DNA of 64,000 nt from Psychrilyobacter piezotolerans (lineage in GTDB: Bacteria > Fusobacteriota > Fusobacteriia > Fusobacteriales > Fusobacteriaceae), in contig NZ_QUAJ01000014.1 in assembly GCF_003391055.1 (NCBI RefSeq), forward strand, positions 1 through 64,000. The letters are read 5' to 3'. Positions 1 to 18,423 of the stretch are shown one piece after another; positions within the stretch are counted from its first letter, which is position 1, and each line of letters opens with the position of its first letter. The notes under the pieces were generated by a model. That model did not search any database. It saw only the letters and a program-made list of their open reading frames with translations, and was not told the origin of the DNA. The position numbers and the translations under genes are program-made.

Positions 1-930
1 TTACATATTTTCTTTTACTTTTGCTACTATATCCTTTGCTCTTAATCCGTATTCATCCAATAATTGGTCACCTGTTCCAGATTGACCGAATTGATCGTAG
101 ATTCCTAATTTCTTGATAAGAGTAGGATGAGTTTCTCCTAAAAATTCAGAGATTGCTCCTCCTAATCCTCCTATTACTGAATGCTCTTCACAAGTTACAA
201 TAAACTTCGTCTCTTGTGCTGCCTTTAAAATAGTAGGACCATCCAATGGCTTAATTGTAGAAACATTGATTACTCTAGCTGAGATCCCTTCTGCTTCCAG
301 TGTTTTTGCTGCTTCCATAGCTTCATGAACTAACATTCCTGTAGCTGCGATTGTAACATCTGTTCCTTCTTTTAAAGTATCAGCTATTCCAATCTCAAAT
401 TTATAATCTGTATCTTTATAGATATCTTCTGTATCTAATCTTCCTGATCTAAGATATACAGGTCCATCATATTCTGCTGCTGCAAATACCATTTGCTTAG
501 TTTCTTCTGCATCTGCCGGACATAATACTACCATTCCCGGGATAGATCTCATAAGAGATATATCTTCTACAGATTGGTGGGATCCTCCGTCCTCTCCTAC
601 AGAGATTCCTGCATGAGTTGGAGCTATTTTAACATTTAATTTTGGATATGCTATAGTGTTTCTGATTTGCTCAAATCCTCTTCCTGCTGCGAACATTGCA
701 AATGTAGAAGCGAATGCTACCTTTCCGGTAGTTGCAAATCCTGCTGCTGTAGCCATTAAATCTGCTTCTGCAATTCCTACATTAAAATGTCTTTCAGGGA
801 ATTCCCCTTGAAATATTGAAGTCTTTGTAGATTTAGATAAGTCTGCCTCTAAAACCACTACATCTTTGTTTATTCTTCCTAATTCAGCTAACGCTTCTCC
901 GTAAGCTTGTCTTGTAGCTTTTTTACTCAT
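1..930 (-). CDS. Transketolase C-terminal subunit, copy 1
   Basis: This is the second half of a split transketolase, carrying the pyrimidine-binding and C-terminal domains (309 residues). With the N-terminal subunit it transfers two-carbon units between ketose and aldose phosphates in the non-oxidative pentose phosphate pathway, in the cytoplasm. The conserved glutamate that activates thiamine diphosphate is E55, in the GIAEAD motif. The gene is complete: its TAA stop occupies the first three bases of the window. It lies 15 bp after its partner subunit, with a GGAGG-type ribosome site, and closes the ascorbate operon. The protein is identical to the one encoded at 10810-11739. The split form is common in anaerobes and archaea. 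Whether it is transketolase rather than a DXPS-like relative rests on the pairing and context. Confidence 0.93.
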   Translation of the reverse strand: MSKKATRQAYGEALAELGRINKDVVVLEADLSKSTKTSIFQGEFPERHFNVGIAEADLMATAAGFATTGKVAFASTFAMFAAGRGFEQIRNTIAYPKLNVKIAPTHAGISVGEDGGSHQSVEDISLMRSIPGMVVLCPADAEETKQMVFAAAEYDGPVYLRSGRLDTEDIYKDTDYKFEIGIADTLKEGTDVTIAATGMLVHEAMEAAKTLEAEGISARVINVSTIKPLDGPTILKAAQETKFIVTCEEHSVIGGLGGAISEFLGETHPTLIKKLGIYDQFGQSGTGDQLLDEYGLRAKDIVAKVKENM

Positions 931-945
931 TTTTTTGGCCTCCTA

Positions 946-1779
946 TTAGTTATTACAACATTCTACGTGACTTAATTCTTCTAATGCTTTCTCTGTTTCT
1001 TCAGATGTGGGAGCTACTCCATGGAACCCGCATACATTTTCCATAAACGAGATACCCTTACCCTTAGTAGTTTTAGCTATAACCATTGTAGGCTGACCTT
1101 TATGAGCCTTAGCAGCTTCTAAAGCTCCTAATATTTCCTCGAAGTTATGACCGTCTATTACGATTACATTCCATCCAAATGCTCTCCATTTATCATCTAA
1201 TGGTTCAACACCCATTACTTTATCTACATTTCCATCTATTTGTAAGTTATTAGAATCTAAGAATGCACATACGTTATCAAGGTTATAGTGAGCAGCAGTC
1301 ATAGCAGCTTCCCATACTTGACCTTCCTGTACTTCTCCATCTCCTAATAATACATATGTTCTATATGATTTATTGTCTAATTTTGCTGATAATGCCATTC
1401 CATTTGCTACTGATAACCCTTGTCCTAATGAACCTGTAGAGATATCTACTCCCGGTAATTTTTTCATATCCGGATGTCCCTGTAAAGGTGATCCAAATTT
1501 TCTAAGTGTTCCTAATAACTCTCTATCAAAATATCCCTTCTCTGCTAATGCTGCGTATAATACTGGTGCTGCATGCCCCTTTGATAAAACGAATCTATCT
1601 CTGTCTGCCATCTTAGGATTCTTTGGATCGATGTTCATCTCATTGAAGTATAGTGCACTCACTATATCCGCCGCTGATAAAGACCCCCCTGGATGTCCTG
1701 ATTTTGATTTACAAATCATAGTCACAATATCTTTTCTTATCTGTGTAGCTTTTTCCGTTAACATCTTGATATCTGCCAT
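946..1779 (-). CDS. Transketolase N-terminal (TPP-binding) subunit, copy 1
   Basis: This is the thiamine-diphosphate-binding half of split transketolase (277 residues). The SGHPGG motif is at residues 27-32, and the TPP/metal motif starts with GDGE at 146-149 and ends with the NN pair at 177-178. Start ATG follows an AAGGAG ribosome site. The protein is identical to copy 2 (11755-12588); I see only four base differences between the two genes, at 1648, 1672, 1684 and 1696, all silent. The upstream spacer has TTGACA at 1815-1820 but only a weak -10, unlike copy 2. It therefore probably depends mainly on readthrough from the ascorbate operon. It acts together with the next gene, 15 bp downstream. 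Confidence 0.93.
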   Translation of the reverse strand: MADIKMLTEKATQIRKDIVTMICKSKSGHPGGSLSAADIVSALYFNEMNIDPKNPKMADRDRFVLSKGHAAPVLYAALAEKGYFDRELLGTLRKFGSPLQGHPDMKKLPGVDISTGSLGQGLSVANGMALSAKLDNKSYRTYVLLGDGEVQEGQVWEAAMTAAHYNLDNVCAFLDSNNLQIDGNVDKVMGVEPLDDKWRAFGWNVIVIDGHNFEEILGALEAAKAHKGQPTMVIAKTTKGKGISFMENVCGFHGVAPTSEETEKALEELSHVECCNN

Positions 1780-1791
1780 TTTAACTCCTTT

Positions 1792-1820
1792 TTAATCTAA
1801 AATATACTAACTATTGTCAA
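1792..1820 (-). promoter_or_regulatory. Weak or decayed promoter ahead of transketolase copy 1
   Basis: TTGACA (1815-1820) is followed after 17 bp by GATTAA (1792-1797). The same -35 and first spacer bases occur in copy 2, where the -10 is a perfect TATAAT. About 50 bp present in copy 2 between the -10 and the ribosome site is missing here, which removed the good -10. Activity is uncertain. Confidence 0.4.
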
Positions 1821-1845
1821 GTTATAAAAAATAGTACAGAATTGA

Positions 1846-1883
1846 GAGTCTTGAATTTTCAACTTAAAATTCAGCACTGACTC
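1846..1883 (-). other. Stem-loop between transaldolase 1 and transketolase 1
   Basis: On the minus strand GAGTC and GACTC bracket an inner GAATTTT/AAAATTC stem, about 30 bp after the transaldolase stop. The equivalent hairpin in copy 2 keeps its pairing although the outer arm sequence differs, so the structure appears to be maintained. It is followed by a short T-rich stretch and could be a weak terminator or mRNA-end stabiliser. Confidence 0.5.
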
Positions 1884-1910
1884 CCCCTTCCATACTATAA
1901 TTCAATCTAT

Positions 1911-2552
1911 TTATCTTACCCCTTCCCAGTCAGCTAAGAATTTAGCTATTCCTGCATCTGTTAATGGATGCTGAGTCATTTTTTCAATTACACCAAGTGG
2001 CAGAGTTCCGATATGTGCCCCTGCTTTAGCAGCTTCCTTTGCATGTAATGGATTTCTAATACTTGCAGCAATTATTTCTGATTTTATATTGTGCACATTA
2101 AATATTTGTACAATCTCTCTGATTAATTCGATCCCATCTACACCGATATCATCCAATCTTCCTAAGAATGGTGATACAAATGTTGCTCCTGCCCTGGCAG
2201 CCAATAGTGCCTGGTTAGGAGTAAAAATTAGAGTTACATTAGTTTTTATTCCTCTTTTAGATAGGGCAGAACAAGCTTTTAATCCTTCTACAGTCATAGG
2301 TAACTTGATTGTGATATTTGGATGAATTTTGATTAACTCTTCAGCTTCTTCCAGCATCTTAGGAGCTTCCAGTGAGATTACTTCTGCACTGATAGGGCCA
2401 TCTACAATAGATGTTATCTCTGTTACAACCTCTTTAAATACCCTTCCTTCTCTTGCAATAAGAGATGGATTTGTAGTTACCCCACAAATAACACCCATAT
2501 CATTAGCTTTTTTTATGTCTGCCACATTTGCTGTATCTATAAATAATTTCAT
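1911..2552 (-). CDS. tal: Transaldolase, short FSA/TalC type, copy 1
   Basis: A 213-residue class I aldolase of the short transaldolase / fructose-6-phosphate aldolase family. It transfers dihydroxyacetone units between sugar phosphates. The TTNPSL motif is at 26-31 and the Schiff-base lysine is most likely K83 in IKLPMT. It lies 5 bp downstream of the HPr gene and upstream of transketolase, so ascorbate-derived pentose phosphate can be converted to glycolytic intermediates by enzymes made from the same operon. Copy 2 (12758-13399) differs at about six residues, far more than the transketolase copies do. Transaldolase and F6P-aldolase activities cannot be told apart by eye; the neighbouring transketolase favours transaldolase. 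Confidence 0.9.
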
Positions 2553-2557
2553 CTATA

Positions 2558-2821
2558 TTAGTCCTCCATTTTTATTAAATATTGAGTAAGTTGCTCTAAT
2601 GCTTCTGTCTCATCAATACCATCAGTATATACTTTAACAGTAGCCCCCTCTTTTATTCCAAGAGAAAGAAGTTTGAGAAGGGATGTTCCTTTTACTTTTT
2701 TACCATTACCATTTTCCACTTCAACCTTAGAATTAAAGGTTTTTGCAAGATTTACAAAAACATTTCCTGGTCTTGTATGAAGTCCATTTTTATTCGTTAT
2801 AATTACTTCTTTTACTTCCAT
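2558..2821 (-). CDS. HPr-like phosphocarrier, operon-encoded
   Basis: An 87-residue HPr-family protein that carries phosphate from enzyme I to the PTS EIIA. The active histidine is H15 (GLHTRP), and the regulatory serine expected in Gram-positive-type HPr is S47 (GTSLLK), so both control sites are present. It sits inside the ascorbate PTS operon rather than next to ptsI, suggesting a dedicated carrier. The start ATG overlaps the stop of a 23-codon ORF by one base, and its AGGAGG ribosome site lies inside that ORF, so translation is probably coupled. It could alternatively be the cell's general HPr; the rest of the genome is needed to decide. Confidence 0.9.
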   Translation of the reverse strand: MEVKEVIITNKNGLHTRPGNVFVNLAKTFNSKVEVENGNGKKVKGTSLLKLLSLGIKEGATVKVYTDGIDETEALEQLTQYLIKMED

Positions 2822-2892
2822 TATTTCCTCCTAAACATCTCTCTAATAGCTCTTTTTATGTTTTTGATCTGTTTCCATTTCTTAAGTGTCAT
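2821..2892 (-). CDS. Tiny basic ORF, 23 residues, upstream of HPr
   Basis: ATG at 2892 is preceded by GGAGG with a 9-base gap, and the ORF ends in TAA overlapping the HPr ATG by one base. The predicted peptide starts MTLKKWKQ, ends EMFRRK and is strongly basic, with about ten Lys/Arg. It contains the HPr ribosome site. It may be a coupling peptide whose translation opens the HPr start, or a functional microprotein. I recognise no family. Support is the ribosome site and precise overlap, not homology. Confidence 0.5.
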   Translation of the reverse strand: MTLKKWKQIKNIKRAIREMFRRK

Positions 2893-2896
2893 TTAT

Positions 2897-2950
2897 CTAA
2901 ACCTCCAAACCAAAATATTTAAAAATGAGTTCATCGTCTATAATATCCAT
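2897..2950 (-). CDS. Tiny acidic ORF, 17 residues, upstream of the basic ORF
   Basis: ATG at 2950 has AAAGGA six bases upstream. The peptide begins MDIIDDEL, ends FGLEV and is acidic. Its stop lies 4 bp before the start of the 23-codon ORF, and it contains the GGAGG ribosome site for that ORF. The two ORFs thus form a chain of coupled starts between ulaF and HPr. No family is recognised. A chance ORF is possible given the length. Confidence 0.4.
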   Translation of the reverse strand: MDIIDDELIFKYFGLEV

Positions 2951-2968
2951 TTTCATTCCTTTTTTATT

Positions 2969-3664
2969 TTAGTTTTGCCCATAGTAGGCATCTTTTCCAT
3001 GCTTTCTATAGAAATGTTTTTCTAATAACTCAGTTTGCATTTGTTTTACTTCATTATTTAATTTTTCTGTACTATAAGCCATTTTGGCTAGTTCTTCTAG
3101 TACTACAGCATTATGAACTGCATTCAATGGAGAACTTCCCCATGTAAATGGTCCATGACTATTTACTAAAATAGCTGGCATATGATCAGGATTTAATCCC
3201 CTTTCTTTTATAGTTTCTATAATTACTGTGCCAGTTTCTCTTTCATATTCTCCTCCAATCTCAGCAGGATCCATTTTTCTAGTACATGGGATATCACCAC
3301 AGAAATAGTCGGCATGAGTTGTTCCATATGCTACTAAGTCTTTTCCTGCTTGAGAAAAAATTGTAGCCCATGTAGAATGAGTATGTACGACTCCTTCTAT
3401 ATTTGGAAATGCTTTATATAATTCTATATGAGTAGCTGTATCTGATGAGGGTTTATAATGCCCTTCAACTACTTTCCCATTAAAATCTACTACTACTAAA
3501 TCTTCTACTTTCATATTATCGTATTCTACACCACTTGGTTTTATTACTATAAGCCCTTTTTCTCTATCAATGCCACTTACATTACCCCAAGTATATGTTA
3601 TTAATCCTTTTTTAGGCAATTCTAAATTTGCTTCTAGAACTTCTTTTTTTAATTCTTCTAGCAT
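2969..3664 (-). CDS. ulaF: L-ribulose-5-phosphate 4-epimerase UlaF (AraD family)
   Basis: A class II aldolase-fold, metal-dependent epimerase (231 residues) that interconverts L-ribulose 5-phosphate and D-xylulose 5-phosphate, the last step before the pentose phosphate pathway. The zinc-binding HTHST motif is in the middle and the AHADYF-like segment (TTHADYF) follows. I start it at ATG 3664 (MLEELKKEV) because AGGAGG lies 9 bases upstream; an open frame extends to 3703 but lacks a ribosome site. It overlaps the end of ulaE by 7 bp, indicating coupling. Family members are about 230 residues, which fits this start. AraD itself is the main alternative; the ula neighbours decide for UlaF. Confidence 0.94.
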
Positions 3665-4530
3665 GAATAGTAACCTCCTAATTTCATTTTTTCTATCATC
3701 CACTCTTTAGCCTTTTTTATCTCTGCAATAGGATCTTCAGATTTTTCAGTCCACATCTCTATTAATAGCGGCCCTTTATAATCTAACTTTTTTAAAATTT
3801 TAAAAAAATTAACAAAATTTACGCATCCTTCACCAAAAGGAACTTCTTTAAACTTACCAGGAAATTCTGAAGTTACAGCTAGTGTATCTTTTAAATGGAT
3901 AGCGCTTATCTCAGTGATTCCTTTTTTCATCTCTTTCTCTACATTGTTTCCCCATGCACTTAGATTTCCACAATCTGGATACACCGTAAGAAATGGTGAA
4001 TTTAATATTTTAGAAAATTCAATATATTTTGTAATCGAGTTCATAAAAGGATGATCCATTATTTCTATCGATAACATAACCTGGGCTTGTTCAGCCCACT
4101 TCAATGATTGTTTCATTCCATCTATATAAAGTTCTCTTGTTTTTTCATTTCCTTTTTCATAATAAACATCATAACCTGCCATTTGAATATTTCTTATCCC
4201 AAGATCAGCAGCTAACTCTATAGCTTTTTTCATAAGTTCTAATGATTTTTTTCTAGTCTCTTTATTTTCACTTCCTAAAGGAAACCTCCTATGTCCGCTA
4301 AAACACATAGATGGTACTCTAATTCCTATTTCAAGTACTGCTCTAGTAAATTCAATTCTTTCTTCATTAGTCCATTCTAACCTTGCCAGTCTTTCATCTG
4401 TTTCATCTACGGAAATTTCTACAAATTTATAACCAGCATCTTTAGCTATTTCTAATCTTTCTCTCCATGATATATTTTTAGGGAGAGCTTTTTCGTATAT
4501 TCCCAATTCAAGATCTGTTAACTTATACAT
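3658..4530 (-). CDS. ulaE: L-ribulose-5-phosphate (L-xylulose-5-P) 3-epimerase UlaE
   Basis: A 290-residue TIM-barrel epimerase of the xylose-isomerase-like/AP-endonuclease-2 superfamily. It converts L-xylulose 5-phosphate to L-ribulose 5-phosphate in anaerobic ascorbate breakdown. The N-terminus (YEKALPKN) and the internal [10 protein letters not shown] and HLKDTL segments match the UlaE/SgaU family, and length is normal. It begins 2 bp after ulaD ends and overlaps ulaF by 7 bp, so the D-E-F block is tightly packed and probably translated as a unit. Confidence 0.94.
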
Positions 4531-4532
4531 AT

Positions 4533-5171
4533 TTACCCCCAGATTTTAGCGATCTCTTCTTTCCATGCTCTAGCTTCTGCTCCTGGATCAACAGCATCTC
4601 TTAATGATCTTCCTGCTATAAAACAATGAACAGCTACTCCCTTAAATAATTTTAAAGTATCTTTATTTAATCCTCCCGTTACCGAAACTTTAAATCCCAT
4701 TTCAATTAACTTGGTTACTTTATCAAGATCTTTTGCTCCCCAAGTTTCTCCTGCAAGAAGTGCATCTCTACTTTGATGGTAAACCACTTGAGTTAATCCT
4801 GCATCTTTCCAATTTTGAGCATGTTCATATGTCCAGTCACCATATAATTCTACCTGCAAATCATCGACTTCTTTAAAAGCTGCTTTCATTGTAGGAATAG
4901 TTGCAGAACATATTACCGTCATCCAGTTTGCACCAGCGTCATAGCAGTTCTTTGCTACTGTACCTCCTGCATCTGCACATTTAGTATCTGCTAATATAAT
5001 CTTATCAGGAAAAAGTGCTCTCAGGCATCTAACTGCTCCCATCCCCTCTTGAAGGCAAAGTATTGTTCCTGCTTCTATTACATCTACGTCATCTCCCAAT
5101 GCTAAAGCTGACTTTAAAGCATCAGGTAAATTATTGTTGTCTAAGGCTACTTGTAGTAAAGGCATATTCAT
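4533..5171 (-). CDS. ulaD: 3-keto-L-gulonate-6-phosphate decarboxylase UlaD
   Basis: A 212-residue enzyme of the orotidine-5'-phosphate decarboxylase superfamily. It decarboxylates 3-keto-L-gulonate 6-phosphate to L-xylulose 5-phosphate. The metal-binding strand ILADTKCADAG near residue 60 and the GGLN phosphate-binding loop near the C-terminus are present. A start at MNMPLL is preceded by GGAGATGA. The related hexulose-6-phosphate synthase has the same fold, but flanking ulaC and ulaE genes make UlaD the better call. A 78-bp gap upstream, larger than its neighbours', holds an inverted repeat that may be an operator. Confidence 0.94.
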   Translation of the reverse strand: MNMPLLQVALDNNNLPDALKSALALGDDVDVIEAGTILCLQEGMGAVRCLRALFPDKIILADTKCADAGGTVAKNCYDAGANWMTVICSATIPTMKAAFKEVDDLQVELYGDWTYEHAQNWKDAGLTQVVYHQSRDALLAGETWGAKDLDKVTKLIEMGFKVSVTGGLNKDTLKLFKGVAVHCFIAGRSLRDAVDPGAEARAWKEEIAKIWG

Positions 5172-5214
5172 TTATATCATCTCCTATATCGTTATATTAA
5201 TAATTAATCAATAG

Positions 5215-5233
5215 TGTTTACATTTTGCTAACA
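5215..5233. promoter_or_regulatory. Inverted repeat TGTTTACA-ttt-TGCTAACA upstream of ulaD
   Basis: Two 8-bp near-inverted half-sites separated by 3 bp lie between ulaC and ulaD. The same TGTTNACA/TGTTAGCA words recur three times below the ulaG promoter at 8701-8730. The sharing suggests one regulator that acts at both the main and an internal ula promoter. Confidence 0.5.
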
Positions 5234-5249
5234 CATTAGATAAAAAAAA

Positions 5250-5696
5250 TTATCCTACTATTTTTAAAACATCTTCTATTGTTTTAGCTGCAATCAACTT
5301 ATCTATATTGTCTTCATCGTCTAAAAGATCTACAATTTGAGGTATTGCAACTTCTGCATGAGCATCAGAGCTTGTTGCAGCCAGTGTGAATAATATTTGA
5401 GCATATTCATGATCTTCTGTCCCAAATTTCACTGGATCTTTTAGTATTGTTATTGCAAAACAGTCTTTTATAACACCAGATTCCGGTCTTGAATGAGGCA
5501 TAGCTATCCCAGGAACCAACATATAATAAGGACCTAACTCTTTTGTAGTCTTTACTATCTCATCGTAATATCTAGGTTCTATCGCTCCTGATTCTACCAA
5601 TACATCTGTTCCTAATTTTACCGCTTCTTCCCATGTTTTTGCTTCTTGATTTATTAAAATAGAATTATTTTCTATAAGCGAGTCTCTTAAAGTCAT
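5250..5696 (-). CDS. ulaC: PTS ascorbate EIIA component UlaC
   Basis: A 148-residue EIIA of the mannitol/fructose/nitrogen-type PTS fold. It accepts phosphate from HPr and passes it to UlaB. The phosphorylated histidine is H68 in AMPHSRPE, the same position as in the E. coli family member as I recall it. ATG 5696 is preferred because GGAGGG precedes it; an in-frame ATG four codons earlier (5708) has no ribosome site and overlaps the SD. It lies 21 bp from ulaB. Confidence 0.93.
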   Translation of the reverse strand: MTLRDSLIENNSILINQEAKTWEEAVKLGTDVLVESGAIEPRYYDEIVKTTKELGPYYMLVPGIAMPHSRPESGVIKDCFAITILKDPVKFGTEDHEYAQILFTLAATSSDAHAEVAIPQIVDLLDDEDNIDKLIAAKTIEDVLKIVG

Positions 5697-5717
5697 TTTT
5701 CCCTCCATAGTTACATT

Positions 5718-5996
5718 TTATTTTAAAACTTCTAATAACCTAGCTTCCATCTCTTTAGCATCCATTATATTTTTTAAAGATACTAAAGTTGTTGCAGGTC
5801 TTGCTTTTAATTGACTGATAAGGTGAGTAGAAGCAATTACTACATCATAATTATTTACTATTGATTTAGCTTGTCCTACACTACAGTTCTCTGCTTGACA
5901 CTCTATTTTATGTGAATCTAATATTTTTTTTGCTTTTATTTTCATCATTGTGCTTGTTCCCATTCCATTCCCACATACTGCTAATAATTTAATCAT
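5718..5996 (-). CDS. ulaB: PTS ascorbate EIIB component UlaB
   Basis: A 92-residue EIIB of the lactose/ascorbate type. It phosphorylates L-ascorbate during uptake through UlaA. The phospho-cysteine is C8 in AVCGNGMGTS, the P-loop-like signature of the family. It follows ulaA across a 95-bp spacer that contains a 17-bp perfect stem-loop, and precedes ulaC closely. Confidence 0.94.
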   Translation of the reverse strand: MIKLLAVCGNGMGTSTMMKIKAKKILDSHKIECQAENCSVGQAKSIVNNYDVVIASTHLISQLKARPATTLVSLKNIMDAKEMEARLLEVLK

Positions 5997-6029
5997 TGTT
6001 ATTCCCCCAATTTATTGAATTTATAATTT

Positions 6030-6071
6030 ATCTAGATCTAATCTTTAAATTTAGAAAGATTAGATCTAGAT
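6030..6071. other. 17-bp perfect stem-loop between ulaA and ulaB
   Basis: The arm at 6030-6046 is perfectly complementary to 6055-6071 with an 8-base loop. On the transcribed strand it is not followed by a T-run, so it is not a classical terminator. It may be an RNA-processing or stability element that adjusts the ratio of membrane EIIC to soluble EIIB/EIIA. Confidence 0.7.
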
Positions 6072-6091
6072 TTATTTTTTATTACCGTTTT

Positions 6092-7549
6092 TTAAGCATA
6101 TTCAGCTTCTACTTCTTCATCTGATAGAGGTTCATTATCAAAATAGTGCTCTGGTGATTTAGCTCTTTTGAATTGAATTATAGGAATTGCTAACATTCCT
6201 ACTATTGCAATTACATATCCAACTATACCTAAGTTATTCATAAGGAATCCTTGTGCTAACCACATTGAACTTTGGTCGATATTTCCATGCCATCCTCCAA
6301 AACCTTGTAACTTAAACATTGCTACTGCTACTGCGCCTCCAAGTACTTGAAGTATCCCTGATATGAAAGGTACTATTGCTGCGGCTTTTGCTCCACCTCT
6401 TTTTTCTGCAAATATAGCTAAAGTTGCATTATCAAAGAATACTGGTACAAATCCTGTTATGATTAATATAGGAGATTTAAATACAAGTAATCCAGCGATA
6501 GCGATAAACTGACCTAATGCTCCAAATATAAACCCAAATAATACTGCATTTGGAGAACCAAATCCATATACTGCTGCACAGTCTACTGCCGGCAATACTC
6601 CTGGAAGGATCTTATTGGATATACCTTGGAATGATTCCGTTAACTCTCCAACGAACATTCTCACACCTGTCATTAATATTGCTAAATACACAGCAAAAGA
6701 TAGTGATTTTGAAACTATATAAGTTGGGAATGCTAATTTTGCAGAAAATTTAGGATCTAATTCTCTCATATATTCAGGTCCTAGTATAACCATTATTATC
6801 CCGAAAAAGACTAACATAAGCGTCCCTGTGGCAACTATATTGTCATGGAATATTGATAACCAATCAGGTAATTTTAAATCATCTAATTTCTTTTTAGGAT
6901 CCCCTAATTTCCCTGCAACTTTATCTGTAGCCCATATTGCAAACATTTGTTGATGACCTATTACGAATCCTGCATTTTCTGTAACTCTTTGAGTTGGTCT
7001 TACTATTAAGTTTGTCGCCACAGCCCAATAAACTCCTACGAATACTCCTACCATAACTGCACCAGTTAAGTTTCTGTATTGTGGAAATGCCATAAATACT
7101 ATCCAAGTAGCAGTTGTAGCTTGCTGCACCATTATATGTCCTGTTATAAAAAGCGTTCTACATTTAGTTATCTTTCTAGCCATAACTAATAATATATTTA
7201 AAGTAAAACCAATAAGTAATGCAATCATAGTCCAAGAAGTTGATAAACCTATACTCTCTAATGCTTTATTTACAGCATTTAATCCAAAATATGGATCAAT
7301 TACCGCTGCATTAAGTCCAAATCTACCATTTAACCCAGCTAATATTGGTCTAAATGTTACTACCAATCCTCCAGCTCCTACACCTAGAATCATATACCCT
7401 ACTGTAGCTTTTATAAACCCAGAAAAAGCTTCATGTATTGGTCTACTCAACAACATGTAACCTACAAATACTAAAATACCGATAAAAAATTCTGGTTTCG
7501 TCAGAATATTATTTACAAACCCTTCTAATATTACACTTATAAAATCCAT
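6092..7549 (-). CDS. ulaA: PTS ascorbate EIIC permease UlaA (SgaT)
   Basis: A 485-residue polytopic membrane protein of the PTS-GatC/UlaA (AG) superfamily. It moves L-ascorbate across the inner membrane as UlaB phosphorylates it to L-ascorbate 6-phosphate. Around eleven hydrophobic segments are visible, with conserved stretches GYMILGVGAGGLV near 55 and QQATTATWIVF near 145. Length matches the family (about 465-485). It is the second gene after ulaG, with a 56-bp gap. The acidic tail (DNEPLSDEEVEAEYA) is a soluble C-terminus. Confidence 0.95.
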   Translation of the reverse strand: MDFISVILEGFVNNILTKPEFFIGILVFVGYMLLSRPIHEAFSGFIKATVGYMILGVGAGGLVVTFRPILAGLNGRFGLNAAVIDPYFGLNAVNKALESIGLSTSWTMIALLIGFTLNILLVMARKITKCRTLFITGHIMVQQATTATWIVFMAFPQYRNLTGAVMVGVFVGVYWAVATNLIVRPTQRVTENAGFVIGHQQMFAIWATDKVAGKLGDPKKKLDDLKLPDWLSIFHDNIVATGTLMLVFFGIIMVILGPEYMRELDPKFSAKLAFPTYIVSKSLSFAVYLAILMTGVRMFVGELTESFQGISNKILPGVLPAVDCAAVYGFGSPNAVLFGFIFGALGQFIAIAGLLVFKSPILIITGFVPVFFDNATLAIFAEKRGGAKAAAIVPFISGILQVLGGAVAVAMFKLQGFGGWHGNIDQSSMWLAQGFLMNNLGIVGYVIAIVGMLAIPIIQFKRAKSPEHYFDNEPLSDEEVEAEYA

Positions 7550-7605
7550 TATCTTTCCCCCTTTTAATAAAATAATTTCATATAATTTTTATTTGATTAA
7601 TACCT

Positions 7606-8667
7606 TTATAATAATGATTTAAATGGTAAGTCTGGTTCTATTGCAAATGCATCATGGAATCCTCTGTCATACATATATTCAATTCTATCTTTATCTAATG
7701 GCCAAGTAAATTTTCCTCCTACCTGCCAAATAAATGGTTTAAATTGATATTGTAATCTATTTTTTCTCATCTCCCATAAAGTCAATATTTCTTTAGGATC
7801 TGCCATAAAATTAGTCCATATATCATGATGAAAAGGTATTATTACTTTCGTTTTTAAAGATTCTGCCATTCTTAACATATCTGAGGCATTGATCTTATCG
7901 GTCATTCCCCTAGGGTTTTCTCCAAACGATCCAAGTGCTACATCTATCTTGTGATCATTACCATGTTTAGCAAAATAGTTTGAGTAGTGAGAATCTCCAC
8001 TATGATAGACACTTCCACCTGGTGTTTTTATTAGATAATTAACCGCTAACTTATCCATATCTCTTACTGGGCTATCTTTTAGTATCATTCCTTTCGGTGC
8101 TGTAACTAATTCCGTCCTGTCAAAGGAATCTAAAGCTACAATTTCAGTATCCTTTATTTTAACTGTATCTCCAGGTTTTACAGTTATACATCTATCGGCA
8201 GGTACCCCCCAACTTTTCCATAGATCTGTACACGCTTCTGGTCCCACAAATTTAACTGACTCATCACAGTTTTGTAAAACCGCTGCCGCTGTATAGTAAC
8301 AGATATGATCTCCATGATCATGAGTTGCTAATACTACATCTAATTCTTTTATTCCCCAAGGATCCAATACACAAGGTGAATTTCTAAGATTTGGTTGTAA
8401 TGCAACACAACCTATCATTCTTTGATGTTGATGTTGTTCTTTCATCAATTTATTTTTTTTACTTCTTTTTCCACTTTTTACCCAAAAATCTATACAAATG
8501 TTTGCATTTCCCTCTGATTTTACCCAAAGTCCTGTACATCCTAACCACCACATAGCAAAAGTTCCAGGCATTACTTTTTCTTCTTCTATCTCTTCATTAA
8601 GCCAAGTTCCCCATTCAGGAAAGTTATCCATCAACCATTTTTCTTTTGTAATCTCATCGACATTCAT
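7606..8667 (-). CDS. ulaG: L-ascorbate-6-phosphate lactonase UlaG
   Basis: A 353-residue metallo-beta-lactamase-fold hydrolase that opens L-ascorbate 6-phosphate to 3-keto-L-gulonate 6-phosphate. The metal ligand motif is HDHGDH at 116-121; later ligands are the histidine in YHSGDSHYS and the IIPFHHDIW segment. Length and the N-terminal [16 protein letters not shown] segment are typical for UlaG. It is the first gene of the operon, with GGAGG upstream of its ATG and a good promoter 70-95 bp away. It diverges from the XRE-family regulator at 8896. Confidence 0.96.
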
Positions 8668-8895: not shown

Positions 8896-9300
8896 ATGTC
8901 TGGATACTTAAAAATAGATCACAATTCTTTAATTGCATTAGGAAACTATATTCGTTCTCATCGAATCAAGAAAAATATAGGTTTGAGAGAGATGGCTACT
9001 AGAATTGGAATAAGTAACGCTTACTTATCAAATTTAGAATCGGGGAAACATTCTAAAGCTAACCCTTTGTTATTAAAAAAAATAGCAGAAGAGTTAAAAA
9101 TAGACCATCTAACACTTTTTAAAATAATCGGATATACAAATAAAGATATCAATGATATTCAAAATGAACTTTTGAACGATAACTCAAATAAAACAAAAAA
9201 AGAAAAAAAAATGGAACAAATGGTTGATTATATGAGAAAATTTTCAGAAGAAGAATTTGAATTAGTAGAAAAATATCTTGAACTTATTAGAAAGAAATAA
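8896..9300 (+). CDS. XRE/HTH_3-family transcriptional regulator
   Basis: A 134-residue protein with an N-terminal Cro/C1-type helix-turn-helix (about residues 13-67, including LREMATRIGISNAYLSNLESG), a lysine-rich linker near 105 and a short helical C-terminus. There is no sensory domain of a known sugar-binding type. It is divergent from ulaG, with GTAGGAG before the ATG, and is the only regulator beside the ula operon, so it is the best candidate for binding the half-sites at 8701-8730. Ligand and mode of action are unknown. It could instead be unrelated to ula and simply adjacent. Confidence 0.85.
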   Translation: MSGYLKIDHNSLIALGNYIRSHRIKKNIGLREMATRIGISNAYLSNLESGKHSKANPLLLKKIAEELKIDHLTLFKIIGYTNKDINDIQNELLNDNSNKTKKEKKMEQMVDYMRKFSEEEFELVEKYLELIRKK

Positions 9301-9396: not shown

Positions 9397-10304
9397 TTAA
9401 GATACTATTAAAAGATGATTTCTGTATTGTGCAGGAGTCATCTTTTTTAAATTCCATTGATACCTATGGTTATTGTAATAATTCATATATTTAGATAGTT
9501 CTTTCTTTACATCATCTAATGTTTTTAAGGGCTTTAAATTTATTTCATCTTTCATATGTCCAAAGAATGACTCCATGGGGGCATTATCCCAACAGTTGCC
9601 TTTTCGCGACATTGATTGGATAATTTTGTTTGATTTCACTAATTTTTGGAACTTAGGATTAGTATAGTGAAAGCCTTGATCTGAATGAATAATACAACTC
9701 TGGGTGGAGTTTAAACTTTCTTCTAACTAAGCGCTTCACTGTATTTAAAGCAATATCAATACTAAGACTATGAGATACTTCGTAAGCTAGTATTTCATTA
9801 GTGCTGCCATCTTTTATTGTTGAAAGATAAGCTCTTTTGCCAATTCCATAAGTTAAATAGCTGATATCAGTTAAGAGAATTTTTCTGGGAACTTCTTGTT
9901 TAAATTCTCTATTCAATATATTTTGGACTGTTGAATGTTCCTTAGTTGCTTTAGCTATGTTTTTATAGGGGGTCGGTTTTCTATGAGGACATATTATTCC
10001 GTATTTTTTCATAATTCTTCTTATTTTTTTCAAGTTAAAAATAGTATCAAATTCATTCTCTAAAATCATCCTGATACTTCGTGCACCCTTCTTACACCCT
10101 CTTCTATTAAAAGCTTTTAGAATTAATTTTTTGGATTTCAAGTCTTGAGTCTCTTTATTATTTCTATTCTTTTCTGAATTAATATAGTTGTAAAAACCAG
10201 ACCTAGAAACTCCCGCTTGAAAACATAAAAATTTAATTTTTGATTTCAATTTATATTTTTTAACTGTTAATTCAATAGCTTCAAAATTCTCTGTTTTATT
10301 TAAG
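9397..10304 (-). pseudogene. IS3-family transposase OrfB, frameshifted
   Basis: OrfB carries the DDE integrase core: first Asp in TDISYL, second in HSDQGF and the Glu in PMESFF. The frame breaks between about 9696 and 9720, just before the second Asp: the upstream part (to 9659) ends early at SLY while the downstream part (from about 9690) resumes in another frame with IIHSDQG. Normal OrfB entry would be by -1 slippage at the AAAGGGGGG run at 10308-10316 in the end of OrfA. A one-base sequencing error is an alternative explanation. Confidence 0.85.
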
Positions 10305-10809: not shown

Positions 10810-11739
10810 TTACATATTTTCTTTTACTTTTGCTACTATATCCTTTGCTCTTAATCCGTATTCATCCAATAATTGGTCACCTGTTCCAGATTGACCGAAT
10901 TGATCGTAGATTCCTAATTTCTTGATAAGAGTAGGATGAGTTTCTCCTAAAAATTCAGAGATTGCTCCTCCTAATCCTCCTATTACTGAATGCTCTTCAC
11001 AAGTTACAATAAACTTCGTCTCTTGTGCTGCCTTTAAAATAGTAGGACCATCCAATGGCTTAATTGTAGAAACATTGATTACTCTAGCTGAGATCCCTTC
11101 TGCTTCCAGTGTTTTTGCTGCTTCCATAGCTTCATGAACTAACATTCCTGTAGCTGCGATTGTAACATCTGTTCCTTCTTTTAAAGTATCAGCTATTCCA
11201 ATCTCAAATTTATAATCTGTATCTTTATAGATATCTTCTGTATCTAATCTTCCTGATCTAAGATATACAGGTCCATCATATTCTGCTGCTGCAAATACCA
11301 TTTGCTTAGTTTCTTCTGCATCTGCCGGACATAATACTACCATTCCCGGGATAGATCTCATAAGAGATATATCTTCTACAGATTGGTGGGATCCTCCGTC
11401 CTCTCCTACAGAGATTCCTGCATGAGTTGGAGCTATTTTAACATTTAATTTTGGATATGCTATAGTGTTTCTGATTTGCTCAAATCCTCTTCCTGCTGCG
11501 AACATTGCAAATGTAGAAGCGAATGCTACCTTTCCGGTAGTTGCAAATCCTGCTGCTGTAGCCATTAAATCTGCTTCTGCAATTCCTACATTAAAATGTC
11601 TTTCAGGGAATTCCCCTTGAAATATTGAAGTCTTTGTAGATTTAGATAAGTCTGCCTCTAAAACCACTACATCTTTGTTTATTCTTCCTAATTCAGCTAA
11701 CGCTTCTCCGTAAGCTTGTCTTGTAGCTTTTTTACTCAT
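10810..11739 (-). CDS. Transketolase C-terminal subunit, copy 2
   Basis: A 309-residue pyrimidine-binding plus C-terminal half of split transketolase, identical in protein to the product of 1-930 and, as far as I can read, identical in DNA. E55 is the TPP-activating glutamate. It is the last gene of the ribose operon and is followed by a hairpin shared with the IS end. The lack of any silent divergence from copy 1 implies a very recent duplication or ongoing gene conversion, because the adjacent transaldolase copies have clearly diverged. Confidence 0.93.
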   Translation of the reverse strand: MSKKATRQAYGEALAELGRINKDVVVLEADLSKSTKTSIFQGEFPERHFNVGIAEADLMATAAGFATTGKVAFASTFAMFAAGRGFEQIRNTIAYPKLNVKIAPTHAGISVGEDGGSHQSVEDISLMRSIPGMVVLCPADAEETKQMVFAAAEYDGPVYLRSGRLDTEDIYKDTDYKFEIGIADTLKEGTDVTIAATGMLVHEAMEAAKTLEAEGISARVINVSTIKPLDGPTILKAAQETKFIVTCEEHSVIGGLGGAISEFLGETHPTLIKKLGIYDQFGQSGTGDQLLDEYGLRAKDIVAKVKENM

Positions 11740-11754
11740 TTTTTTGGCCTCCTA

Positions 11755-12588
11755 TTAGTTATTACAACATTCTACGTGACTTAATTCTTCTAATGCTTTC
11801 TCTGTTTCTTCAGATGTGGGAGCTACTCCATGGAACCCGCATACATTTTCCATAAACGAGATACCCTTACCCTTAGTAGTTTTAGCTATAACCATTGTAG
11901 GCTGACCTTTATGAGCCTTAGCAGCTTCTAAAGCTCCTAATATTTCCTCGAAGTTATGACCGTCTATTACGATTACATTCCATCCAAATGCTCTCCATTT
12001 ATCATCTAATGGTTCAACACCCATTACTTTATCTACATTTCCATCTATTTGTAAGTTATTAGAATCTAAGAATGCACATACGTTATCAAGGTTATAGTGA
12101 GCAGCAGTCATAGCAGCTTCCCATACTTGACCTTCCTGTACTTCTCCATCTCCTAATAATACATATGTTCTATATGATTTATTGTCTAATTTTGCTGATA
12201 ATGCCATTCCATTTGCTACTGATAACCCTTGTCCTAATGAACCTGTAGAGATATCTACTCCCGGTAATTTTTTCATATCCGGATGTCCCTGTAAAGGTGA
12301 TCCAAATTTTCTAAGTGTTCCTAATAACTCTCTATCAAAATATCCCTTCTCTGCTAATGCTGCGTATAATACTGGTGCTGCATGCCCCTTTGATAAAACG
12401 AATCTATCTCTGTCTGCCATCTTAGGATTCTTTGGATCGATGTTCATCTCATTGAAATATAGTGCACTCACTATATCCGCTGCTGATAAAGATCCCCCTG
12501 GATGACCTGATTTTGATTTACAAATCATAGTCACAATATCTTTTCTTATCTGTGTAGCTTTTTCCGTTAACATCTTGATATCTGCCAT
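11755..12588 (-). CDS. Transketolase N-terminal (TPP-binding) subunit, copy 2
   Basis: A 277-residue TPP-binding half with GDGE at 146-149 and NN at 177-178, the same protein as copy 1. It has AAAGGAG before the ATG. Upstream lies a perfect consensus promoter (TTGACA-17-TATAAT), so this copy can be expressed independently of the ribose operon. Homology with copy 1 continues only to just past the ribosome site and then resumes at the -35, the difference being an indel of about 50 bp. Confidence 0.93.
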   Translation of the reverse strand: MADIKMLTEKATQIRKDIVTMICKSKSGHPGGSLSAADIVSALYFNEMNIDPKNPKMADRDRFVLSKGHAAPVLYAALAEKGYFDRELLGTLRKFGSPLQGHPDMKKLPGVDISTGSLGQGLSVANGMALSAKLDNKSYRTYVLLGDGEVQEGQVWEAAMTAAHYNLDNVCAFLDSNNLQIDGNVDKVMGVEPLDDKWRAFGWNVIVIDGHNFEEILGALEAAKAHKGQPTMVIAKTTKGKGISFMENVCGFHGVAPTSEETEKALEELSHVECCNN

Positions 12589-12642
12589 TTTAACTCCTTT
12601 TTAAATAAAAATTAGTGTACATTATTTGTTTTTTCTAACAAC

Positions 12643-12671
12643 ATTATATGTAATATACTAGTTATTGTCAA
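12643..12671 (-). promoter_or_regulatory. Consensus promoter for transketolase copy 2
   Basis: TTGACA (12666-12671) and TATAAT (12643-12648), both perfect matches to consensus, are spaced by exactly 17 bp. The start codon is 55 bp downstream of the -10. This gives the transketolase pair strong expression independent of ribose. Confidence 0.85.
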
Positions 12672-12687
12672 GTTATAAAAAATAGTA

Positions 12688-12736
12688 CAGAGTTCAGAAT
12701 CTCGAATTTTTCCCTCAAAATTCAGCACTAACTCTG
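12688..12736 (-). other. Stem-loop between transaldolase 2 and transketolase 2
   Basis: CAGAGTT/AACTCTG outer arms enclose GAATTTT/AAAAATTC. It sits in the same place as the hairpin at 1846-1883, and the outer arm changed on both sides relative to copy 1 with pairing kept, which argues that the RNA structure matters. It probably ends most operon transcripts before the downstream promoter. Confidence 0.55.
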
Positions 12737-12757
12737 CCTTCTATACTATTAGTTTAT

Positions 12758-13399
12758 TTATTTTACCCCTTCCCAGTCAGCTAAGAATTTAGCTATCCCT
12801 GCGTCTGTTAATGGATGCTGAGTCATTTTTTCAATTACACCAAGGGGCATAGTCCCGATATGTGCTCCTGCTTTAGCAGCTTCCTTTGCATGTAATGGAT
12901 TTCTGATACTTGCAGCAATTATTTCCGATTTTATATTGTGTACATTAAATATTTGTACAATCTCTCTGATTAATTCGATTCCATCTACACCGATATCATC
13001 CAATCTTCCTAAGAACGGTGATACAAATGTCGCTCCTGCTCTAGCAGCTAATAGTGCCTGATTAGGAGTAAAAATTAAAGTTACATTGGTTTTTATCCCT
13101 CTTTTAGATAGTGCAGAACAAGCTTTTAATCCTTCTACAGTCATAGGTAACTTGATTGTGATATTTGGATGAATTTTGATTAAATCTTCAGCTTCCTCTA
13201 ACATCTTAGGAGCTTCTAATGAGATTACTTCTGCACTTATAGGCCCGTCTACAATAGATGTTATCTCTGTTACAACCTCTTTAAATACCCTTCCTTCTTT
13301 TGCGATAAGTGATGGATTTGTAGTTACCCCACAAATAACACCCATATCATTAGCTTTTTTTATGTCTTCTACATTTGCCGTATCGATAAATATTTTCAA
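12758..13399 (-). CDS. tal: Transaldolase, short FSA/TalC type, copy 2
   Basis: A 213-residue short transaldolase with TTNPSL at 26-31 and probable Schiff-base lysine K83. I start it at a TTG (13397-13399, reading [10 protein letters not shown]) because AAGGAGG lies 7 bases upstream and because this matches the length of copy 1; a longer open frame to 13435 would swallow the ribosome site. It belongs to the ribose operon, between the ROK kinase and transketolase, and converts ribose-derived pentose phosphates with the adjacent transketolase. Six or so residues differ from copy 1. Confidence 0.9.
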
Positions 13400-13415
13400 T
13401 TTTATTCCTCCTTGG

Positions 13416-13435
13416 ATGTTTGCTTGTACAAACAT
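13416..13435. promoter_or_regulatory. Inverted repeat just upstream of transaldolase 2
   Basis: ATGTTTG and CAAACAT arms are separated by 6 bp and lie directly before the AAGGAGG ribosome site. It could be an operator or a translation-controlling hairpin. The rest of the 180-bp spacer (13400-13579) shows nothing I can name. Confidence 0.35.
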
Positions 13436-13579
13436 ATTTAATATTACATATACTTATTTTTTAACTAATTCCCTGCAATTTATACCCCAGTAAACTTTAG
13501 ATCTTATAAGTCATTTTACTACAATCCATAATTTATAAATATGCCTTTTGTCCTAAAATTAGATGAGAACTTCCCTTTT

Positions 13580-14452
13580 CTAACACAATACCAGGTCTGC
13601 CAGTGCCAATGCCCCGCAGATCCCTGCGTCATCTCCTAATTCAGGATAAACTATATAATCGTCTATATTTTCCAGTATATTTTTATGGGATACATAGCCA
13701 TTTAATCTTTCAACTACTTTTTTTCTGATCAATGGAAATAACTGCTTTTGTTTCATGACTCCTCCGCCTAATATTATCTTTTTAGGCGATATTATCAGAA
13801 TATAGTTAACCAGCCCCTGGGCTAAATAATGTGCTTCTAAATCCCATGCTATATGGTCTTTGGAAAGTTCATACGGATTTATCCCCCATCTTTCCTCAAT
13901 AGCCGGGCCAGATGCCATCCCTTCCAGACAATCTCCATGATATGGGCATTTCCCCTTATACTTGTCCTCCTCTGCTCTGCCGACAAAGATATGGCCGGTT
14001 TCCGGGTGGGTCATCCCATGGACCAGGTTTCCATGGATATATACACCTCCGCCAATCCCTGTGCCCACAGTGAGGTAGATCAGAGAATCCAGTCCAATAC
14101 CACTCCCCCACTTGGCTTCACCTAAGGCTGCACCATTTACATCGGTATCAAAGTTTATAGGGATATCAAAATATTTTTTCAGTTCTCCCAGAATATTGTA
14201 ATTCCTCCACCCGGGTTTCGGAGTAGAAGTTATATAACCATAAGTTTTTGAATTTTTATCCAAATCAATAGGCCCAAAACAGCCTATCCCTAAAGCCTTT
14301 ATCTCTTTATCTATAAAAAATCCCATTACTTTTTTCAGTGTTTCTTCCGGAGTGGTGGTAGAAAATGATATCCTCTCTAAAATTTCTCCTTTTTTTGTCC
14401 CCACTGCGCAGACAAATTTTGTTCCCCCTGCTTCTATTGCTCCCAGTAACAT
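13580..14452 (-). CDS. ROK-family sugar kinase (fructokinase/glucokinase-like)
   Basis: A 290-residue cytoplasmic ATP-dependent sugar kinase of the ROK family. The N-terminal phosphate-binding loop IEAGGTKFVC, the catalytic aspartate region FDTDVNGAALGE, the GTGIGGG loop and a zinc-binding CPYHGDCLEG segment are all present, and the last is typical of ScrK-type fructokinases. Start at ATG 14452 is chosen over 14461 because GAGGTG is 6 bases upstream. It follows rbsB in the ribose operon, which already has a ribokinase, so its substrate may be the fructose or glucose formed downstream, or another sugar entering by the same importer. Confidence 0.88.
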   Translation of the reverse strand: MLLGAIEAGGTKFVCAVGTKKGEILERISFSTTTPEETLKKVMGFFIDKEIKALGIGCFGPIDLDKNSKTYGYITSTPKPGWRNYNILGELKKYFDIPINFDTDVNGAALGEAKWGSGIGLDSLIYLTVGTGIGGGVYIHGNLVHGMTHPETGHIFVGRAEEDKYKGKCPYHGDCLEGMASGPAIEERWGINPYELSKDHIAWDLEAHYLAQGLVNYILIISPKKIILGGGVMKQKQLFPLIRKKVVERLNGYVSHKNILENIDDYIVYPELGDDAGICGALALADLVLC

Positions 14453-14502
14453 AAAATGCACCTCTTTTATATTTCTATTTTTCAGTATTTTACCGAATCC
14501 AC

Positions 14503-14548
14503 TCTTTTTATAGAGTAAATGGGAAGAAATTTCTTTCCTCCCATCCTA
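14503..14548 (-). other. Stem-loop region after rbsB
   Basis: Below the rbsB stop the transcribed strand can fold ATGGGAGGAAAG against CTTTCTTCCCAT-like bases, followed by a small ACTC/GAGT hairpin. No strong T-run follows. Such intergenic stems after binding-protein genes often protect the upstream mRNA. Confidence 0.4.
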
Positions 14549-14558
14549 TCTAATCTTC

Positions 14559-15431
14559 TTATTTTGTGATTAACTTTAATTCTACCGGAATAAATTTAGG
14601 AGTTTTTTCTCCTTTCATTATCCTATTTGCTGTTTCTACCCCTTGAGATCCTATTAATTTAGGCTGTTGAGCTACAGTTGCAGCTAACCCGCCTTTTTCC
14701 ACTGATTTCACAGCATCTGCAGTAGCATCGAATCCTACTACTAAGATATTTTTATTATTTCCAATAGCTTTTAATGCTCCCAAAGCCATCTCATCATTAT
14801 GAGCAAATACACCGTCTATTTTCGGCTGAGCCTGGATCATATTTTCCATTACATTAAGTCCCTTAGTTCTGTCAAAGTCAGCAGCTTGTCTTCCTACTAC
14901 GTCTAAGTTTCCTTTAGCCACTTCATTGAAACCCTTTCCTCTGTCTCTTGCAGCTGTTGTACCTGGAATTCCTTCTAATTCAACTATTTTAGCTCCCTTA
15001 CCTAATTTTTTCAGGATAAATTCCCCGGCCATCTTACCTCCAGCTGCATTATCCGATGCAATATGAGTAACTACCTTTCCTCTGTTTGCTCCTCTGTCCA
15101 AAGTTACTACAGGCACCTTTGATCTATTGGCATTTTTTACTGCTCTATACACTGCATCTGAATCTGTAGGATTGATTAATATTACATCTACTCCCCTTAC
15201 AATCAGATCTTCTACATTTGATAATTCTTTAGCCGGATCATTTTGAGAATCCAAAACTATAAGTTCCATATCTAGTTTTTTTGCTTCATCCTGCGCTCCC
15301 TCTTTTAGATCTACAAAGAAAGGATTGTTTAAAGTAGATATTACTAACCCTACCTTTCCTTTGGCAAAAGCTACAGTTGACATCATTCCAATACAAAGTC
15401 CCACAACTAACAATTTTAATGTTTTTTTCAT
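14559..15431 (-). CDS. rbsB: D-ribose ABC transporter periplasmic binding protein RbsB
   Basis: A 290-residue type I periplasmic-binding protein. A classical signal peptide (about residues 1-23, ending AFA-KG) without lipobox cysteine places it free in a periplasm, in line with a two-membrane cell. Family stretches [24 protein letters not shown] and HNDEMALGA are present. It captures ribose for RbsC/RbsA. It lies 15 bp after rbsC. Confidence 0.95.
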
Positions 15432-15446
15432 TTTTTTATCCCCCTT

Positions 15447-16418
15447 TTATTTATGTGTTTTTCTATCAATTAATACTGCTGCTAATATAACTAAAGCCTT
15501 TATCATCATCTGATAATACGAAGATACATCCAATAGGTTCAATGCATTCCCCAACACTCCTATGATCAGTGCTCCTGTTATCGTTCCTGATATACTTCCT
15601 ATTCCTCCGGAAAGTGAAGTTCCCCCCAGTACTACTGCTGCAATGGCATCCAATTCATACCCTGTTCCTGCTGTAGGCTGAGCCGATCCCAGTCTGGATG
15701 TAATTATAATTCCTGCTAAGGCAGCCAGTCCGCCACTTATAGCATACACTTTAACTTTCAATTTTTCTACATTAATTCCAGATAATTTAGTAGCTTCCTC
15801 ATTCCCACCTACAGCAAAAACATACCTACCAAATTTTGTATTTTTTAACACATAGTTACATACTGCAAATACTGCTATCATTATATATATTGGTACCGGA
15901 ATTCCAAAAAGATATCCTCCACCTATGGTATCAAATAACTCGGCATTCTCTCCAAATCCCATCGAAATCGGTTTTCCGTCTGTAAATACTAAAGTCGCTC
16001 CCCTTAATAATGTCATAGCTACCAAGGTTGTTATAAAAGCCTGTAATTTCCCATAACTTATAAAACTTCCGCTGACTGCCCCCAATATGGTTCCCAATAT
16101 TATAGTTACTATTAAAACTATATAACCGTTGACTCCTCCGGCCAGCATGCTGGCAGATACTGCTCCACAGATAGCCAGGATAGACCCCACCGAAAGATCT
16201 ATTCCCCCTGTTAATATTACAAAGGTCATCCCTGCTGCTATTATTGCATTTATAGATGTCTGTCGGAGTATATTCAATAAGTTCGCTGTAGATAAAAATC
16301 TGGGATTTAATATCGAAACTATCACCCCAAATATAATCAAACCTATCAGGGGTTTGTTTTTTAACAATTTATTTTCTTTTTTAATTGTTGCACCATTTAA
16401 TACCGCACTAGTTTTCAT
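15447..16418 (-). CDS. rbsC: Ribose ABC transporter permease RbsC
   Basis: A 323-residue inner-membrane permease of the sugar importer CUT2 family, with 8-10 hydrophobic segments and the conserved GGIDLSVGS motif near residue 70 and the GGTSLSGG segment near 268. It forms the translocation pore with RbsA. It overlaps rbsA by 11 bp, suggesting coupled translation. Length is normal for RbsC. Confidence 0.95.
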
Positions 16419-17913: not shown

Positions 17914-17924
17914 ATATTTTCTCC

Positions 17925-18332
17925 TTAGAATGTTACTCCTGATTTCAAAATAATATTGGCATATGGTGTACACTCTCCAGTTCTCACCACAGCTTTACTC
18001 TCTTTAGTTATTCCTTTAAATTCCTCATGGGATACTTCTATAATGGTGATTTCTCCGCATTTTATCTCCAGTAATTTTAATAACTTAGTGTAAAATTCAC
18101 CGCTTATATCCTTCATCTCCTCAGCAATCACCACTTCTTCTACCTTTAATTCATCTAAGATCACTTCTAAAGTCCCTAAAAAAGTAGGCACTCCCTTTTC
18201 CACTGCCAAATCTATCCTCTTTACCTCATTTGGAATCGGCAGCCCTGCATCTCCTACAGTTATATGGTCTGTATGTCCCATGGTAGATATCACAGAACTG
18301 ATCTCGCTGTTTAATAATCTGCCTTTTTTCAT
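17925..18332 (-). CDS. rbsD: D-ribose pyranase RbsD
   Basis: A 135-residue mutarotase of the RbsD/FucU family that converts beta-pyranose to beta-furanose ribose, the form ribokinase uses. The catalytic histidine is in the N-terminal [15 protein letters not shown] signature near residue 20. It stands between rbsK and rbsA, with AGGGGG upstream of the ATG. Confidence 0.95.
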
Positions 18333-18392
18333 AAATTTTCCCCCTACTTCTTTTTTCTTTCTTTGCCACCAATCTTCACTAATTTATGGTAC

Positions 18393-18412
18393 GGGTAATT
18401 CATGAATTACCC
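18393..18412. repeat. Dispersed 20-bp palindrome GGGTAATTCATGAATTACCC
   Basis: A perfect palindrome in the 91-bp rbsK-rbsD spacer. Near copies occur at 42085-42104 and 50728-50747, and each has GTG-GCAAA-type repeat words close by (here CTTTGCCACCAATC at 18361). It looks like a small dispersed intergenic repeat family. Confidence 0.7.
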
Positions 18413-18423
18413 CTTCAATTTAC

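Follow-up and report, generated by a model that had tools for sequence, protein, structure and literature searches.

An ascorbate-type PTS operon carrying its own HPr gene

The stretch of DNA that we analysed (64,000 nucleotides; hereafter, the window) belongs to the 3.36 Mb genome of Psychrilyobacter piezotolerans and contains, at the start of its contig, a reverse-strand operon for an ascorbate-type PTS. The upstream part consists of ulaG, A, B, C, D and E (positions 3658-8667; ulaG and ulaB named by position and resemblance), followed by a ulaF-like gene for a class II aldolase of the L-ribulose-5-phosphate 4-epimerase type (2969-3664; Pfam Aldolase_II, E 1.5e-51), which has a homologue at 79% identity in genome G013. 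Downstream come a gene for an HPr of 87 amino acids (2558-2821; PTS-HPr, E 5.4e-25), one for a transaldolase or fructose-6-phosphate aldolase-like protein (1911-2552; TAL_FSA, E 1.8e-59) and a transketolase in two halves (1-1779; the N-terminal half scanned against Pfam), with which both the operon and the contig end. Pfam domains were thus matched in the HPr, the transaldolase/F6P aldolase, the class II aldolase and the N-terminal transketolase half, and further matches in the operon were to EIIC-GAT, PTS EIIA 2, OMPdecase-type and xylose-isomerase-type families. Some junctions are very tight: ulaD and ulaE are 2 nt apart, the ulaF start overlaps the ulaE stop, and HPr and the transaldolase gene are separated by 5 nt. 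Others are wider (95 nt between ulaA and ulaB, 78 nt between ulaC and ulaD, 131 nt between transaldolase and transketolase). Between the ulaF stop codon (TAA, 2971-2969) and HPr there is a spacer of 147 nt. A promoter and terminator scan of positions 1750-3300, with an overall count of sites similar to that in shuffled sequences, placed no site in this spacer, and we rejected an internal promoter or terminator there.

The HPr encoded in the operon scored 87.7 bits against the PTS-HPr domain (Pfam cut-off 23) and, by eye, keeps the GLHTRPGN phospho-histidine region and the motif GTSLLKLLSLGI; we take the former to contain the phosphorylatable His-15, with Arg-17, and the latter the equivalent of Ser-46. 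It is 63-64% identical to the ptsH product of the same genome, which lies beside ptsI on another contig (C18 of this genome, G000), and a third, more distant HPr is encoded on C44. Among 98 genomes of the phylum, a search at E 1e-28 matched 22, this one included, and outside the operon locus no sequence exceeded 68% identity to the operon HPr. In a tree of 43 sequences (duplicates and sequences shorter than 75 amino acids left out, three rows trimmed of the initial Met), it has a long branch (0.93), separate from the ptsH of this genome and lacking supported kin. We discarded the possibility that it is the ptsH orthologue that accompanies ptsI, since the ptsH-ptsI pair of this genome is elsewhere and the two sequences branch apart, the placement of the operon copy being unsure. 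Judged by these sequence comparisons, it is a diverged ptsH paralogue present only here among the 98 phylum genomes. Elsewhere in the phylum, genome G025 also has two ptsH-like copies, on different contigs (locus L102, 280-540, and locus L103, 5669-5929), with the same pair of genes (193 and 520-522 amino acids) after each copy.

An HPr gene within a PTS operon had been called unusual in the sequence-only reading. This holds for the ula operons of the phylum, where we saw no other case across the ulaF matches read, but not in general, since the available part of one paper describes a fruA-ptsH operon in Actinobacteria and the fructose-associated HPr known as FPr (PMC2405797). The Psychrilyobacter operon resembles these cases in that a sugar PTS operon carries an HPr paralogue, and differs from them in that a stand-alone HPr is found in a ula operon together with transaldolase and transketolase. 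Our literature search, at the level of titles and abstract openings, retrieved no description of an HPr in a ula operon.

Comparison with related genomes

Within the family, and counting the window, ulaF matches numbered 24 and came from 22 of 61 genomes; the gene was absent from all seven congeners, four of whose genomes are only 62-81% complete. A readable next ORF (at least 80 amino acids) followed ulaF in 20 of the 23 other matches and was never HPr, nor did we find an HPr match anywhere in the other ulaF loci. The three loci with no readable next ORF were L065, L067 and L082, in two of which 435 and 112 bases of contig were left. Two relatives point to the ancestral arrangement: in genome G030 (L091), the order ulaG-A-B-C-D-E-F-transaldolase-transketolase is identical to that of the window and the transaldolase gene starts 12 nt after ulaF, and in G023 (L067) transaldolase also directly follows ulaF. 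The simplest reading of these two adjacencies is that HPr and its 147-nt spacer were inserted into a pre-existing ulaF-transaldolase order.

The spacer DNA itself had no convincing relative in the 61 genomes; its best outside match (E 3.4e-9) covered query positions 2-42 and fell where a second ulaF homologue in G023 ends. A plasmid collection yielded no match. The comparison of the spacer among relatives, proposed in the sequence-only reading as the way to separate conserved amino acids from conserved overlaps, therefore came out empty, with neither a related spacer nor an HPr following ulaF, and conservation cannot yet decide among the readings discussed below.

In 12 of the 20 readable loci of relatives, the ORF directly after ulaF resembles, by eye, a helix-turn-helix protein that in the window is encoded divergently upstream of ulaG (8896-9300). 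This regulator seems to have moved from one end of the operon to the other.

Two chained tiny ORFs between ulaF and HPr

The spacer contains two tiny ORFs on the reverse strand. ORF1 (2897-2950; 17 codons) runs from an ATG at 2950 to a TAG stop at 2899-2897 and encodes an acidic start (MDIIDDE...; complete peptide MDIIDDELIFKYFGLEV), with an AGGA SD 6 nt before its start; an in-frame ATG at 2956 would give 19 codons, although it lies too near the SD to be a usable start. ORF2 (2821-2892; 23 codons) runs from an ATG at 2892 to a TAA stop at 2823-2821 and encodes a basic peptide (MTLKKWKQIKNIKRAIREMFRRK), amphipathic if helical. Its SD, GGAGG, is located within ORF1, 9 nt before the ORF2 start, and that of HPr, AGGAGG, within ORF2, 5 nt before the HPr ATG (2821-2819), which shares one base with the ORF2 stop (TAATG). 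Both tiny ORFs thus start with ATG behind SDs having 5-6 matching bases in our scan, and the junction between ORF2 and HPr combines a stop/start overlap with an SD inside the upstream frame, as in translationally coupled leader ORFs. Re-reading the sequence confirmed to the base the layout that had first drawn attention to this spacer, including the coordinates, the 17 and 23 codons, the nested SDs and the one-base overlap with HPr.

Such a succession had been judged too orderly for a random spacer. We surveyed 864 kb of the 3.36 Mb genome with a simple gene caller (754 genes, 576 codirectional pairs) and found a two-ORF chain in none of 223 other codirectional spacers of 60-300 nt under five settings; a preliminary count, from a set in which the target pair was absent, had likewise given 0 of 70 spacers of 100-250 nt. 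A chain arose in 3 of 6000 dinucleotide shuffles of the target spacer under a strict definition (ATG only, at least 15 codons) and in 23 of 6000 under a loose one (any start, at least 10 codons). From these rates, 0.010 (strict) or 0.363 (loose) chains would be expected in the other 223 spacers, and about 0.04 or 1.4 when scaled to the genome. The rarity of the chain thus agrees with the claim, but its criteria, like the acidic count and the amphipathicity measures used below, were all picked after seeing the sequences. That the two-ORF chain is unusual, and rarer than in a chance spacer, is therefore moderately supported, by a test defined post hoc. Solitary tiny ORFs that have an SD and abut the following gene were close to chance (4 observed versus 2.0 expected, strict; 11 versus 8.1, loose), so that this genome shows no general habit of building such bridges.

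These figures bear on a neutral origin, in which the spacer is a purine-rich, non-coding leftover of the insertion where SD-like runs and short frames occur by chance and where the tiny ORFs are perhaps translated at a low level while nothing depends on them. We give this explanation appreciable weight, somewhat short of an even chance. The 1.4 chains per genome predicted by the loose definition, the near-chance frequency of single abutting ORFs and the absence of a homologous spacer or peptide in the relatives searched all fit it; the strict chain counts in shuffles and in other spacers do not, nor does the fact that both ORFs have ATG starts with SDs of 5-6 matching bases.

Coding signals of the two peptides

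Codon usage divides the two ORFs. The codon score of ORF1 equals that of the median gene (scores as low occur in 47% of genes and scores as high in 15% of spacer ORFs), which speaks against an accident, whereas that of ORF2 equals the median of spacer ORFs (scores as high occur in 50% of them and scores as low in only 7% of genes), as an accident would predict. For the ORF2 peptide, the 60 other genomes of the family gave nothing better than E 0.32, and phages and Pfam gave no homologue; together with its spacer-like codon score, this led us to reject a conserved small protein. The proposal that the peptides are real consequently found no support in conservation.

Its remaining form, one or two functional small proteins, most plausibly ORF2 acting as a cationic amphipathic helix, draws on the composition of that peptide. 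It carries a charge of +9, and its 18-residue hydrophobic moment was reached by only 374 of 20,000 permutations and by no other of 162 ATG-initiated spacer ORFs of 18-35 amino acids; permutations matched the moment of an 11-residue window in 80 of 20,000 cases and that of the whole peptide in 1273. Nevertheless, these measures were chosen once ORF2 had been seen, three of its C-terminal residues are fixed by AGGAGGAAA, and ORF1 showed no amphipathicity in the hydrophobic-moment test. With the lack of homologues and the spacer-like codon usage of ORF2, they make a functional peptide unlikely. ORF1 has a different peculiarity, four acidic residues within positions 2-7 (Asp2, Asp5, Asp6 and Glu7), a stretch where only 1 of 608 genes of the genome has at least four. 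The acidic signal of ORF1 and the basic signal of ORF2 support different stories.

Two tandem short frames in different registers could also be the pieces of one decayed gene. A TAA directly before the ORF2 ATG, in the ORF2 frame and past the ORF1 stop, means that a single frameshift cannot join the two frames, and we rejected a split gene on this order of stops. As joining the two peptides gave no Pfam match and the DNA matches nothing in relatives, we consider gene decay extremely improbable.

RNA structure and comparison with acidic leader ORFs

A local A-U-rich hairpin (2907-2975, reverse strand) is predicted to pair the ORF1 SD region, with an outer stem formed by the ulaF stop region and the bases immediately preceding the ORF2 SD. 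This hairpin is of modest strength (z -2.14, matched by 5 of 200 shuffles), and a 201-nt fold of the spacer region (z -0.94, matched by 38 of 200) led us to reject a strong RNA element spanning the entire spacer. The region of the HPr start (2800-2900) folds less well than most shuffles (z +1.01; 168 of 200 fold at least as well), with no predicted structure hiding the HPr RBS. In a 420-nt fold, the three SDs had mean unpaired probabilities of 0.34, 0.35 and 0.44, and the HPr ATG one of 0.75. Given its own AGGAGG at 5 nt and the little structure predicted around it, HPr should be able to initiate translation unaided, and its full SD in RNA less structured than most shuffles leaves no visible need for a relay. 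This self-sufficiency is also what a neutral origin of the tiny ORFs would lead one to expect.

The closest described case is mgtQ, which the available text of PMC8092293 presents as an intergenic, SD-bearing short ORF of 8 codons in the mgtC-mgtB spacer of Salmonella, conserved in relatives, in which Asp2 and Glu5 control the downstream gene mgtB, the RBS of which is occluded. ORF1 is similarly intergenic and SD-bearing, has early acidic residues, overlies a predicted hairpin in a long operon spacer and precedes a gene whose output could be tuned. It differs in being one of two chained ORFs, neither of them conserved, upstream of an open RBS. By analogy, ORF1 might be an mgtQ/mgtL-like ribosome-destabilising sensor, whose acidic residues would pause or drop ribosomes according to Mg2+ or ribosome state and thereby alter the hairpin around ORF1 and ORF2 and, hence, HPr output. 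The mgtQ precedent, the rarity of four early acidic residues, the hairpin overlapping ORF1 and the stalling of E. coli ribosomes by early acidic repeats (as reported in the accessible part of PMC11282234) are consistent with this idea. However, the same source states that di-acidic residues alone are not enough, neither the hidden downstream RBS nor the conservation of mgtQ is found here, and an EttA partner was rejected because the best ABC-F match in the genome reached 383.5 bits, far below the cut-off of 806.75. We regard such a sensor as quite improbable.

A possible translated bridge to HPr

Tentatively, and giving equal weight to a neutral accident of the insertion, we favour a translated, lineage-specific bridge that would loosely couple HPr to ulaF and the rest of the operon. 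An extra HPr gene would have entered the ancestral ulaF-transaldolase junction of the ascorbate-type PTS operon, and the 147-nt leader, private to this lineage, would have come along with it or grown afterwards. Both SD-driven tiny ORFs are very probably translated. A ribosome leaving ulaF, or entering at ORF1, would open the weak hairpin and terminate beside the ORF2 start, and termination at the TAATG of ORF2 would pass ribosomes on to HPr. These stepping stones would keep the long spacer covered by ribosomes and tie HPr output loosely to the operon, the peptides being by-products partly dictated by the SD sites within them.

Stop/start overlaps couple translation by termination-reinitiation (PMC12548453; PMC6728339), and tight coupling is described for overlaps of -1 nt (PMC10666635), in the portions of these papers that were available. 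The one-base overlap between ORF2 and HPr and the SD inside the upstream frame match such systems, although here the upstream frames are tiny and unconserved and any coupling is putative. The anatomy would fit a stepping-stone leader: the exactness of the chain, its -1 overlap, its absence from the 223 other spacers and rarity in strict shuffles, the tight junctions elsewhere in the operon and the hairpin over the ORF1 SD argue for the bridge. The lack of conservation, the near-chance frequency of single tiny ORFs and the strong SD and open start of HPr argue against it, as does the tolerance of the same operon for other gaps of 95, 78 and 131 nt. None of the relatives read carries the HPr insertion, and its leader may have had too little time for selection to act; translation, the hand-over of ribosomes and any selection on it are what we infer from this arrangement. 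In our literature search, no leader ORF was described with ptsH or HPr.

A relay setting the level of HPr, the other option raised in the sequence-only reading, is possible. Its most elaborate version, a two-stage relay with an acidic ribosome-destabilising peptide by which a dedicated, newly captured HPr of the ascorbate-type PTS would be metered by the state of translation and not by a promoter of its own, appears very unlikely. If a relay does work, it would illustrate how tiny frames, with no need for a conserved peptide, can wire the translation of an inserted gene to its operon neighbours, HPr being the payload. If it fails, the locus would show that a designed-looking chain can arise in a lineage-private insertion, a useful negative.

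A second transaldolase-transketolase block

The transaldolase-transketolase block downstream of HPr is found twice in the window (1-2567 and 10810-13411). In bins of 200 bases, the first 1600 bases, comprising nearly the whole of both transketolase genes, are 100% identical between the copies, and the core of transaldolase is ~92-95% identical. The contig start coincides exactly with the end of the identical stretch, so that the two copies may reflect a recent duplication, gene conversion or a repeat-related assembly effect. Upstream of the second copy are a ROK-type kinase and a ribose-type ABC operon (region 12758-19332; names by eye), a setting which suggests that the block is a cassette common to pentose operons. 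In genome G016 (L089), the same block follows an arabinose-type gene set (names by eye). Between the two transketolase blocks of the window we also recognized, by eye, a fragment of an IS3-type transposase (9659-10249).
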